A stretch of 64,000 nucleotides of DNA, from positions 1 through 64,000 of the forward strand of contig NZ_JAPSKV010000008.1 of assembly GCF_031181385.1 (NCBI RefSeq). The letters run 5' to 3'. How positions within the stretch are numbered: position 1 is the first letter of the stretch; each line of letters begins with the position of its first letter. Under the pieces are notes generated by a model. It searched no databases, was not told the origin of the DNA, and saw nothing but the letters and a program-made list of their open reading frames with translations. Positions 1 to 57,322 of the stretch are shown in pieces. Position numbers and translations under genes: made by a program. The DNA is from Fredinandcohnia onubensis. Lineage in GTDB: Bacteria > Bacillota > Bacilli > Bacillales > Bacillaceae_L.

Positions 1-4
1 GCTT

Positions 5-361
5 ATGAAGGACTTTGCGCGATGGACACCGCGCGTTCGGGACTTCATCGGGCTTATGAAGGACTTTGCGCGATGGACGTCGACGCGTTCGGGACTTCAT
101 CGGGCTTATGAAGGACTTTGCGCGATGGACACCGCGCGTTCGGGACTTCATCGGGCTTATGAAGGACTTTGCGCGATGGATGACCTGGCGTTCGGGACTT
201 CACCCCATCTATGAAGAGGTTTCACTTCAAAATTCTGGTGCCTTTTCCTCTTCATCCAATCTATGAAGAGGATTCAACTCAAAATTCAGATTGCTTTTCC
301 CCTTCATCTCGTCTATGAAGAGGATTTACATCAAAATTCAAATTGCTTTTCCTCTTCATCT
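5..361. repeat. Array of seven ~52-bp units with ATGAAG...CTTCAT ends
   Basis: ATGAAG boxes begin at 5, 57, 108, 159, 211, 263 and 314, a spacing of 51-52 bp. Each unit ends in CTTCAT (one copy reads CTTCAC), so successive units meet in the dyad CTTCAT-N7-ATGAAG. The first four units share the core GGACTTTGCGCGATGGA; the last three are a different type, starting ATGAAGAGG and ending CCTCTTCAT or CCCTTCAT, with an AT-rich core. No convincing gene overlaps: the short reading frames here only translate the repeat. Related arrays lie at 14183 and 56124. The first 500 bases hold this array and the palindrome that follows. Confidence 0.9.
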
Positions 362-14182: not shown

Positions 14183-14390
14183 ATGAAGGACTTTAGCTTG
14201 CTTCCTCCTCCTCGCTCGGGTCTTCATAGACCGGATGAAGGACTTTAGTTCGCTTCCTCCTCCCCGTCCGGGTCTTCATAGACCGGATGAAGGACTTTAG
14301 TTCGCTCCCTCCTCCCCGTTCGGGCCTTCATCGAGCGGATGAAGGACTTTAGCTTGCTTCCTCCTCCTCGCTCGGGACTTCATAAATCCA
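14183..14390. repeat. Array of four 52-bp units (ATGAAGGACTTTAG type)
   Basis: ATGAAG boxes start at 14183, 14235, 14287 and 14339, exactly 52 bp apart, and each unit ends in CTTCAT. The units are nearly identical inside (pyrimidine-rich CTTCCTCCTC core). They share outer boxes and period with the arrays at 5-361 and 56124-56610. Confidence 0.92.
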
Positions 14391-28697: not shown

Positions 28698-29005
28698 TTT
28701 CAAAAGAGACAATAAGTGTAAGTATTATCCACTTGTGTATCGTTTTTAAATAAAAATGTGATAAAAGCATACGTAAAAATGAATTGCGTATGCTTTTATT
28801 TAGTTTAGCAGTATAAATGCATTCGCAAAATCCAAAGAATGGTAGAAATGATTTCAAAAGAGATAATGAATGTAAATATTATCCATTTGTGTATCATTTT
28901 TAAGTAAAAAAGTGATAAAAGCATGCGTAAAAATGAATTGCGTATGCTTTTTTATCGATTGGCAGTATAAATGCATTCGTAATATCCAAAAACTAGTAAA
29001 AGTGA
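28698..29005 (+). repeat. Exact-length tandem duplication (2 x 154 bp), each copy with a terminator-like hairpin
   Basis: The segment beginning TTTCAAAAGAGA at 28698 is repeated from 28852, and a truncated third start appears at 29006. The copies differ at scattered positions but have the same length. Each holds the hairpin AAAAGCATACG/CGTATGCTTTT (second copy GCATGCG), at about 28762-28797 and 28916-28952. It lies directly downstream of the racemase gene and contains no reading frame. Confidence 0.88.
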
Positions 29006-29015
29006 TTTCAAAAAC

Positions 29016-29058
29016 GAAGGGAAGAATGCTTCCACATTGGGAGGCATTCTTCCCTTTT
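29016..29058 (+). terminator. Hairpin with T-run downstream of the duplication
   Basis: GAAGGGAAGAATGC pairs with GCATTCTTCCC and is followed by CTTTTGC. It is the third terminator-like hairpin in a row after the racemase gene. Confidence 0.75.
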
Positions 29059-29210
29059 GCTATTTTTCCTTAAAGGACTAAATAGCTGACGTTGCCAGAA
29101 CCGATGCCCCTTCACTGCATTAAAAAACTCCCTCGTACACAGCCCCTTATCGAAGCCATTACTACACACGGTGCGTTTTCAATAACGTTCACTTCTAGCC
29201 ACTTTTACCC

Positions 29211-55036: not shown

Positions 55037-55927
55037 ATGAGTGAGGTTCGTACACAACAAGTTACACCAAACCTTTCCATACAAAAGCCAAGGAAATCCT
55101 TCTTGAACAAAATTGGATTTGGATTTCTATATCTCTTACTAGGTACTTTTGCTATTATTCAAATCTATCCATTGGTTTGGTTGGTGTTCTTTTCCCTAAA
55201 AACCAATAAAGAAGTTTTCGGTATGTCTCCCTTCGCTTTACCACAAAGCCCTCAATGGGAAAACTATACGAAAGCTTGGACTTCCGGAAATATCGGTGTC
55301 TACTTCTTTAATAGTGTTTGGATCACGGTACTATCAGTTGTCCTAACAATCATTCTTGCAAGCTTTGTAACATTTGCAGTAACACGAATGCACTGGAAAC
55401 TAAGCGGACCTGTTCTTGGATTATTCTTAGTTGCCTATATGATCCCGTTACATTCTACTCTAATTCCACTGTTTAAAATGTATAACAGTGCGAACCTAAT
55501 TGATAATCCATTATCAATTGTATTATCCTATACGGCATTTAACTTGCCATTGACAATCATGATATTACTAGGGTTTTACAAAACATTCCCTCGCGAAATT
55601 GAAGAAGCTGCGGTTATGGACGGATGCTCAGTTCATCGAATCTTCTTCCAAATTACGCTACCAATGACGGTGCCTGTGTTATCAACAACCGCAATTATCA
55701 ACATGATTTACAACTGGAATGAATTTGTGTTTGTAAATACTTTTATTAGTTCTGATAAGTGGAAGACACTAACAGTGGGAATCAATAACTTCGTTGGTCA
55801 GTATTTAACAGACTGGGGCGCAATCGGTGCAACCCTTGTTATCAGTATCGTGCCAATTCTACTAGCATTCTTGTTTTTAAGTGATAAGATCGTTGAAGGC
55901 ATGGCAGCTGGGTCTGTGAAAGGGTAA
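55037..55927 (+). CDS. Sugar ABC transporter permease (MalG type)
   Basis: The 296-residue protein has six transmembrane segments and the EAA loop EIEEAAVMDGCSVHRIFFQI. It starts behind AAGGGGGAG. With the preceding permease it forms the channel of a carbohydrate importer. The unit is closed by the hairpin at 56031-56076. Confidence 0.92.
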   Translation: MSEVRTQQVTPNLSIQKPRKSFLNKIGFGFLYLLLGTFAIIQIYPLVWLVFFSLKTNKEVFGMSPFALPQSPQWENYTKAWTSGNIGVYFFNSVWITVLSVVLTIILASFVTFAVTRMHWKLSGPVLGLFLVAYMIPLHSTLIPLFKMYNSANLIDNPLSIVLSYTAFNLPLTIMILLGFYKTFPREIEEAAVMDGCSVHRIFFQITLPMTVPVLSTTAIINMIYNWNEFVFVNTFISSDKWKTLTVGINNFVGQYLTDWGAIGATLVISIVPILLAFLFLSDKIVEGMAAGSVKG

Positions 55928-56030
55928 GGTTCTGAGCAAGGACAAGGATTGTGCTTGCGGCCTTCTTAAGGGATATGCCGCAAGCCTGCCTGAAATATGA
56001 ATGGCAAATTGGCTTGGAGTCAAATATAAA

Positions 56031-56076
56031 AGACAGATAGGAAAGCTTGTACTAGAATCTTCCTATCTGTCTTTTT
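56031..56076 (+). terminator. Terminator of the ABC transporter operon
   Basis: AGACAGATAGGAA and TTCCTATCTGTCT pair perfectly over 13 bases and are followed by TTTTTG. Confidence 0.93.
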
Positions 56077-56123
56077 GTTATTGGGGACTTTGCGTTTGGA
56101 GTTAATACGGTAAGAATTAGGCG

Positions 56124-56610
56124 GATGAAGGAGTTAACACTATTGAGCAATCTTAATGGGGCGTTCATCACATCTATGAAGTACCCCTTTCTTAGGTAAC
56201 TCCGTGCGTTCAGGACTTCATGGGCTCTATGAAGACTCTTTCTTACGTAACTCTATGCGTTCAGGCTTTCATAACCTTGATGAAGGACTTTAGCTTAGAC
56301 AACTTCATTCGTTGGGGACTTCATAGCCCTTATGAAGTCCTTTTTTCTATCAATCTACTCACATTTGGTCCTTCATAACCTTGATGAAGGATCTTAGCTT
56401 AGACAACTTCATTCGTTGGGGACTTCATATCCCTTATGAAGACCTTTTTTCTATCAATCTACTCACTTTCGGTCCTTCATAGATGCCATGAGAGGAATTC
56501 AGCGTCGGCTTCTTCCTGCTTTTCCCCTTCATCTACTCTATGAAGAGGATACAGCATCAGGCCAACGCTTCTTTTCCCCTTCATCGACACGATGAAGAGG
56601 ATTCAGTAAT
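56124..56610. repeat. Array of ten divergent ~52-bp units with ATGAAG...CTTCAT ends
   Basis: Unit starts are at 56124, 56176, 56229, 56280, 56332, 56384, 56436, 56488, 56540 and 56592, a spacing of 51-53 and mostly exactly 52. Most start with ATGAAG (one reads ATGAGA) and end with CTTCAT. Interiors belong to at least three types: TTTAGCTTAGACAACTTCAT, a TTTTTTCTATCAATCTACTC type, and the ATGAAGAGG...CCCCTTCAT type also seen at 211-361. The 55928-56648 gap holds this array and the terminator but no gene. Confidence 0.92.
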
Positions 56611-56648
56611 CTTCAACTACTTTTTGACCCGCAATAAAACTTCTTCCA

Positions 56649-57272
56649 TCATCCTAACTGTTCCTTCTTCCGTTCCGTCTTTTGAAAAGTACGGTAGCAT
56701 GCAGCCATGATGATTGTTGCGGATAGGCTCCCCCCGAAGAAAAAGCCCAATCCAGGGATATATTTTACGACAAAGAAAACCATAACCAAACTAATAACCA
56801 TTACAACGTTCTCAAGTGGATTAATTAGCATTAACAAAAATGAGTTTTTAATCATATGGACAATCTTAAGCTCATAGTGGACAAACACTGGGAATATGTA
56901 CAATAACGTCATTACTGCGGCAAAAATAAACAAATAAATTGGGATTTGAATGGCACGAACAAAACTTCCACCTAAGTTCCTTATAAAAAACAAGTCAAGT
57001 ACAATCAAGACTCCAACTACTACAATGATCAACCCTAGACCGTTACTTTTTATAAGCTCAGCTTTATAGGTACTCCAAAATGTACCAAAGACTGGTATAT
57101 CAGTATCTCCCAATAACCATTTGCGGACTACCGCAAACATGGCCACCGTTGCTGGAAAGAATCCCAAAACAACCAGACCCACTAACGTGAATCCAATCCA
57201 AAGTATATTTAGATACGCGAATTTTGAAATCCACAATGTAGCCGCATAGGCTCGGTTCGCTGTTTTACTCAT
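56649..57272 (-). CDS. DUF624 (YesL-type) membrane protein
   Basis: The product of about 207 residues has five to six hydrophobic segments and the YesL/DUF624 pattern: FAYLNILWIGFTLVGLVVLG with FPATVAMFAVVRKWLLGD and FWSTYKAELIKSNGLG. It starts at 57272 behind GGAGGGAA. DUF624 genes usually accompany YesM/YesN-regulated sugar transporters, as here; their function is unknown. Confidence 0.82.
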   Translation of the reverse strand: MSKTANRAYAATLWISKFAYLNILWIGFTLVGLVVLGFFPATVAMFAVVRKWLLGDTDIPVFGTFWSTYKAELIKSNGLGLIIVVVGVLIVLDLFFIRNLGGSFVRAIQIPIYLFIFAAVMTLLYIFPVFVHYELKIVHMIKNSFLLMLINPLENVVMVISLVMVFFVVKYIPGLGFFFGGSLSATIIMAACYRTFQKTERKKEQLG

Positions 57273-57322
57273 CAAATTCCCTCCAACATCAACAAACACA
57301 AAATTATCTTAATATAACTTTA

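Follow-up and report, generated by a model that had tools for sequence, protein, structure and literature searches.

The ladder of ATGAAG boxes at positions 56,125–56,607 of the window, by which the whole analysed stretch of 64,000 nucleotides of Fredinandcohnia onubensis DNA is meant, is read here, with somewhat better than even confidence, as a dispersed copy of an array belonging to a chromosomal NERD-family nuclease gene. The turnover of such arrays would resemble that of REP elements under RAYT enzymes, the enzyme in charge being an unrelated one.

The array of the finding comprises ten boxes, read directly, with starts at 56,125, 56,176, 56,229, 56,280, 56,332, 56,384, 56,436, 56,488, 56,540 and 56,592. 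Successive distances are 51, 53 and 51 bp, followed by six of 52 bp. Nine of these positions are as given in an earlier note made from the sequence alone; the first box had been placed at 56,124, and the eighth copy, at 56,488, is imperfect (ATGAGA). The last copy, at 56,592, is truncated. Eight elements carry an exact left box and are 44–46 bp long. A typical one (56,280–56,324, plus strand) consists of ATGAAG, 33 bp and CTTCAT, 45 bp in all, and is followed by a 7-bp spacer at 56,325–56,331. The interiors, described earlier as unrelated, are less so than claimed: elements 4–7 make up a 104-bp two-type repeat, positions 56,268–56,481 form a 104-bp two-unit repeat with a 94% match, and inner arm positions are held in common. 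The motif CTTCAT-N7-ATGAAG with at most two mismatches occurs 25 times in the window against 4.8 expected, and none of 100 shuffles reached 25.

The array lies between two convergent genes, a putative sugar ABC transporter permease-like gene (55,037–55,927, plus strand; synteny compared) and a putative gene for a DUF624-like membrane protein (56,649–57,299, minus strand), both named by eye. It is placed beyond a terminator-like hairpin with a T-run (56,029–56,079, plus strand, by eye), which separates it from the upstream gene. G004 carries a longer version at this site, with a unit number different from that of the genome studied, G002 has an array of other units, and G007 has elements 3′ of the same gene. 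No array was seen at this site in G005 and G008; the sister species G005 has a similar terminator-like hairpin there and lacks the array. A third array of the same family (14,183–14,383, four elements) directly follows a terminator-like hairpin as well. At its site, arrays were found in the genome studied, G002, G004 and G006, and none was seen in the examined stretches of G001, G003, G005 and G007 (G008 was not comparable).

The second array of the family occupies positions 5–359, at the contig start, with four GGACTTT-type and three AGG-type units. Contigs C16 and C8 both begin inside arrays (window 1–360 and locus L007 1–400). These arrays have identical units in common, in opposite orientation; therefore, the assembly may break at one array.

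The regular spacing extends over the genome. The own genome (4.26 Mb, 39 contigs) contains 105 exact dyads against 2 for a reversed-pattern control, and 111 exact ATGAAG-N33-CTTCAT elements against 1. Distances below 600 bp between neighbouring dyads, collected regardless of spacing, were exact multiples of 52 in 78 of 84 cases and within 1 bp of a multiple in 82, for the dyads among the matches listed (50 of the 105 dyads of the own genome, and all 32 and 43 of 54, respectively, in two further genomes). The 52-bp peak anticipated earlier was thus found, and the arrays are not all copies of one unit with identical interiors. In a table of 172 array rows, a length of 45 bp was recorded for 1,045 of 1,121 elements and one of 7 bp for 935 of 949 spacers; since this table includes overlapping loci and loci picked by the 52-bp pattern, the unselected 78 of 84 is the cleaner number.

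Removal of repeats left 147 arrays in 83 groups at 75% identity. They are built of 45-bp elements (ATGAAG-N33-CTTCAT) separated by 7-bp spacers. The arm consensus is ATGAAG-R-M-C-WWWW, and 13-bp arms (positions 1–13 and 33–45) are conserved, while the centre and spacer drift. Among 580 similar pairs of adjacent units, mismatches amount to 0.5–6% within the boxes, to as much as 10% elsewhere in the arms and to 11–21% at positions 14–32; the spacer has 15–29% (454 pairs). The arms of dispersed arrays are also constrained. Arm positions 7–10 are complementary more often than expected (43, 54, 69 and 46 versus 31, 30, 55 and 31 of 83), and positions 11–13 less often (20, 21 and 25 versus 29, 39 and 28 of 83). 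Adjacent units show hardly any compensating double changes, the pattern to be expected if the sites are read as double-stranded DNA and not as a hairpin. The earlier suggestion of a ladder of RNA hairpins is accordingly not favoured, given these few compensatory changes and the deficit of complementarity at positions 11 and 12. The interiors of adjacent units are at least 70% identical in 580 of 694 cases, and a CRISPR-like array, with its unique spacers, was rejected.

The 19-bp dyad had been taken as the repeating unit. Dyads do exist; the repeating object is better described as the 45-bp element, because of 268 scored array ends 180 are element-complete and 88 dyad-complete (22 more lie beyond the sequence end), and the dyad was rejected as the unit. 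Comparisons of arm symmetry are a weak test: among 112 informative neighbours the element was better in 48, equal in 25 and the junction better in 39, and at 28 strong switches the respective counts were 18, 1 and 9. Contrary to this description, symmetry in the array of the finding is higher at several junctions than within the elements. With such units, the arm blocks would follow one another centre to centre at alternately about 20 and 32 bp, roughly two and three helical turns.

The arrays are intergenic. According to simple ORF calling, the flanking genes are in tandem for 78 of the 147, convergent for 27 and divergent for 11; one array is inside a long ORF and 30 are at locus edges. Array-free intergenic gaps longer than 60 bp split into 230 tandem, 63 convergent and 83 divergent, so that arrays are under-represented between divergent genes (11 of the 116 placed). 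The array pattern was detected in 15 of 60 genomes (own included) and 8 of 47 genera with zero control matches, and across the class in 5 of 398 genomes, the own among them; one of these five gave a single match. Among the matches listed, public genomes belong to Neobacillus, Sutcliffiella, Metabacillus, Peribacillus, Cytobacillus, Fredinandcohnia, Ureibacillus, Lysinibacillus, Heyndrickxia, Alkalihalobacillus, Mesobacillus, Ammoniphilus, Oceanobacillus, Aquibacillus and others. The same geometry with unrelated interiors occurs in many genera, and array presence differs between sister species at the same site.

Viral contigs gave 11 matches, each a single dyad. Carriage by phages or plasmids was rejected on the ground of these single dyads and of the lack of a NERD match, the protein having no counterpart in 72,556 plasmid and 50,697 phage records at E 1e-20. 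Transposition with a 7-bp target duplication was also rejected, as inspection of the array flanks by eye showed no repeat of the spacer. None of the compared sites offered a clean empty site with a target duplication, the empty sites being too diverged to show the array boundaries; this counts against the favoured reading.

The proteins encoded near arrays include, as the largest recurrent group, ABC transporter-like proteins (21 loci, named by eye), followed by NERD proteins (7 loci). The linked gene product is a protein of about 304 amino acids with a NERD domain (PF08378), which scored 51.4 and 65.8 bits in the two proteins scanned with Pfam, against a curated cut-off of 22.1; no transposase was found in these two at E up to 1. 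The earlier note had proposed a DNA-bending or nucleoid-organising protein, and a nuclease-related domain in the array-tied protein does not support this. Residues E45, D77 and K92, of the PD-(D/E)XK type, are present in 51 of 51 aligned proteins, and 49 of these have E or D at position 90. Cysteines C220, C223, C237 and C240 are conserved, C223 in 50 of 51. The alignment was made from 53 close members, leaving out two shorter than 280 amino acids, and two genes enter it twice, one as L121 and L197, the other as L139 and L194. The gene has a dN/dS of 0.13–0.22 in four distinct comparisons. A PDB profile search returned no NERD relative.

A protein search of the same 60 genomes found NERD to be multicopy; the own genome has seven close paralogues. 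In eight congeners, the gene stands at one locus between conserved neighbours. Some copies are interrupted by in-frame stops: L212 and L213, both with clear arrays, and L289, with a weak two-copy repeat only.

Close NERD genes are linked to arrays. A tandem array was detected within 300 bp of 81 of 85 such genes at a TRF score of at least 70, the same number at a score of at least 100, and 76 of 85 at 150. The best-scoring array is 3′ of the gene in 76 and 5′ in 5 of the 81 cases, usually 5–277 bp past the stop codon (median 72). A terminator-like hairpin between gene and array was found in only 7 of the 44 3′ arrays examined. No array was detected at score 100 for L216, L292, L297 and L299 (4 of 85), which counts against the favoured reading; by eye, L216 has a degenerate 52-bp array. 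The sample had been extended by 18 paralogues, matches in 299 class genomes (22 with a NERD match at E 1e-30) and 11 further copies. Four of the counted genes, L191 (the query gene), L194, L197 and L265, were first met via their arrays, and 77 of 81 remain without them. The count leaves out L290, identical to L221, and six genes met via the array pattern (L106, L119, L121, L134, L139 and L150), three of which are the same genes as the counted L197, L265 and L194. The 85 genes are not independent, because eight are orthologues at one locus and clade members are related.

With the same settings, arrays were found beside 3 of 12 control DUF624 genes and 1 of 29 genes with other NERD architectures, and beside 0 of 12 and 0 of 29 at a score of at least 70, although 10 of the 29 latter loci stop short of the gene's 3′ end, which weakens that control. 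The control arrays below score 70 have 2.0–2.5 copies and scores of 52–67. Among 29 genomes with a close NERD match, of which the best match was examined, 28 have an adjoining array of period 51 or 52, and many of these arrays have boxes other than ATGAAG. Conversely, 14 of the 15 genomes with ATGAAG arrays (own included) have a close NERD gene. The exception is G009 (loci L040 and L055), where the array pattern gave 83 and 85 matches on the two strands with no close NERD gene. These orphan arrays speak against the favoured reading.

The periods of gene-linked arrays correspond to whole helical turns: 20–21, 41–42, 51–53 and 61–63 bp. Base periods in the 81 arrays are 21 (one array), 41–42 (11), 51–53 (62), 61 (one) and 63 (one), and the remainder, 83, 83, 104, 105 and 154, are multiples. 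When trial helical repeats from 9.6 to 11.2 were compared, the distinct periods, with the values 20 and 21 added by hand, fitted best at 10.4. The reading of 52 bp as five helical turns, put forward earlier, thus gains support from related arrays. A more distant NERD subfamily of about 330 amino acids has 20–21-bp direct repeats or multiples in 9 of 12 cases (score of at least 70; 10 of 12 at a low TRF threshold). Iteron-like repeats of this kind, e.g., GCCCAA every 21 bp, accompany L306–L308, L310 and L227, in some cases on both sides of the gene. NERD genes of other families of the class (L278–L284, L293–L303) have 41–42-bp or 61–63-bp arrays.

Within the 52-bp clade the period is inherited, and its members do not count as independent cases. 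In a FastTree tree, the 41–42-bp period has three places: a clade of 13, L284, and the pair L281/L282 inside the 52-bp group, where the period probably moved by one turn (supports of only 0.74–0.87).

The linkage is family-specific. In the own genome, seven paralogues have seven different arrays, and no cross-match between them was found at E 0.01 with six of the arrays used as queries. Three of the repeat types also occur away from their genes: ATGAAG (the 111 exact elements), C1 and C37. The C1 type is represented in the window by a 154-bp tandem repeat (28,698–29,097, plus strand; first seen as 28,698–29,013), about three times 51 bp (3 × 51.3). It is related to the array adjoining the NERD gene at position 54,594 of contig C1 (alignment z 11 and 13), and a C1-type query in nhmmer matched 28,729–29,097 at E 8.2e-24 and 28,708–28,836 at E 5.5e-6. 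This repeat is unlike the array of the finding. At L006 (495–892), a C37-type array lies close to an ATGAAG-type one.

Dispersal is seen in other families as well. The NERD-linked array L233 of G010 defines a family, GATTCGGAC...GTCCGAATC, whose copies are scattered through G010, G012, G014 and G024 (4 of the 60 genomes searched; control 0); the remaining 56 yielded no exact match. In G007, the arms that follow the orthologous NERD gene read ATGACGACA, and in G001 ATGATAACC. The pattern ATGAYRAC, which covers both arm classes, has 83 matches in G007 and 16 in G001 (control 0), of which 72 and 13 lie away from the NERD-linked array and 11 and 3 within it; among other congeners, there are 3 matches in G003 and 0 in six. 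The arm class of dispersed arrays therefore covaries with that of the NERD-linked arms, as a match of class and not letter for letter. Against this counts that in G007 most altered arms read ATGATGAC, whereas its NERD-linked array has ATGACGAC, and that ATGAAG-type arrays persist in both G007 and G001. G006 has an AGG-type array at its NERD gene and a dispersed array, L032, of the GAC type, which argues against a simple one-to-one rule.

In the most closely examined families, the array consists of short inverted arms at whole-turn spacing. The evidence fits a sequence-specific protein that reads the arms on one face of the helix and has a conserved nuclease-type site; it also fits arrays that turn over, homogenise and appear at new places. 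We consider it about an even bet that a nuclease of the PD-(D/E)XK type assembles on its cognate array of two, four, five or six turns and spreads it, with paralogues owning private families. The NERD protein would recognise the arms via its C-terminal cysteine-rich part, and many molecules of it would line up along one side of the helix. The conserved nuclease site may then cut or nick within bound arrays, and repair of the cuts would lengthen, shorten, homogenise and spread them. Uncontrolled cutting at tens of chromosomal sites would carry a high cost, which weighs against this scheme.

Other explanations share part of this evidence. Bound to the phased arrays, the NERD protein could form a structural or regulatory complex, at sites that act as insulator, anchor or operator, without moving them, dispersal being ordinary duplication and recombination kept by selection. 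Whole-turn periods agree with such a role, as do the arm constraint in dispersed arrays, the intergenic placement with fewer arrays between divergent genes, and the single NERD locus of eight congeners. Array presence that varies at one site in sister species, conserved catalytic-type residues and several paralogues with different arrays per genome speak against it, and we regard this account as unlikely, at roughly one chance in a handful. Slippage alone, with neutral minisatellites and incidental NERD neighbours, would explain the unit numbers that differ between the own genome and G004 at the site of the array of the finding. This account is already contradicted by the linkage of 81 of 85 genes against 0 of 12 and 0 of 29 controls, and by the arm-class covariation, the arm constraint and the same geometry with unrelated interiors in many genera; we give it hardly any credence.

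Chromosomal arrays could mark self by holding or licensing a nuclease that acts on array-free DNA. A multicopy, patchy family with some stop-interrupted copies would suit defence, and there is weak similarity to defence proteins: PADLOC gave E 0.026 and 0.069 for one of two proteins, and NCBIfam MAD6 scored 15 and 26 bits against a cut-off of 460. The plasmid and phage records without a match speak against it, and it appears improbable. About as improbable is control at the RNA level as in type III toxin-antitoxin systems, where the array would be transcribed as the 3′ tail of the gene and its RNA units would control the nuclease. The mostly 3′ position and the rarity of an intervening terminator-like hairpin are in its favour. 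It is at odds with an array 3′ and not 5′ of the gene, the near-absence of compensatory changes, whole-turn periods, for which RNA offers no evident reason, the two window arrays beyond terminator-like hairpins and the lack of an Rfam match at E up to 1 in positions 55,900–56,700.

The favoured reading, an array owned by a NERD nuclease gene, has its nearest functional parallel in REP-RAYT systems, if the protein does bind, cut and spread its arrays. Likenesses to REP, BIME and REPIN elements and RAYTs (PMC2817692, PMC3116915) are extragenic palindromic repeats in the order of 100 copies, an enzyme of a DNA-cutting type whose gene adjoins repeats of its own, more than one such pair in a genome, repeats that covary with the enzyme and a patchy distribution across species. 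According to PMC2817692, REPs flank RAYTs on both sides, and the systems are characterised by obligate linkage, coevolution and correlated abundance. Coevolution and abundance with the enzyme have their counterpart here in the arm-class covariation and in the 14 of 15 genomes; a gene between two inverted repeats does not, when the best-scoring array per gene is counted. The enzyme here is a NERD protein of the PD-(D/E)XK type and not a Y1 HUH (IS200/IS605-like) tyrosine transposase, and the arrays are tandem, usually on one side (3′ in 76, 5′ in 5) and of whole-turn period. Because enzyme and array layout differ, the NERD arrays are not a member of the REP-RAYT family.

Other known repeats resemble the arrays in single features. 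Compared by description, neisserial intergenic mosaic elements with dRS3, whose interiors vary in length, likewise form intergenic arrays in which a short dyad with a variable centre separates variable interiors; the NERD arrays differ in their fixed interior length and linked gene. Iterons of plasmid origins are direct repeats about two turns apart, like those beside the distant NERD subfamily, whereas the NERD arrays are chromosomal and the linked protein is not a replication initiator. In type III toxin-antitoxin systems, a transcribed repeat array lies upstream of the toxin gene. ToxIN-like systems share a nuclease gene beside its specific tandem array; the NERD array is mostly 3′ of its gene, dispersed in the genome and of whole-turn period.

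In the literature searched, passages of PMC2267715 and PMC10910872 included, no description of a NERD-linked array system was found; PMC2267715 names repeat families of B. halodurans and B. anthracis. The gene linkage and the whole-turn spacings point to an undescribed nuclease-and-repeat system.

Through the linkage, a nuclease-related family that lacked an explanation acquires a concrete substrate in DNA, and intergenic repeats of Bacillus relatives that had stood as orphans can be assigned to an owner. Helical phasing would make this a natural system in which to study how a protein reads DNA length. Since each paralogue of the own genome has its own repeat sequence, the arrays might serve as orthogonal binding arrays. 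If the nuclease does spread its arrays, the system would represent a second, independently evolved solution to the task performed by REP elements and RAYTs.
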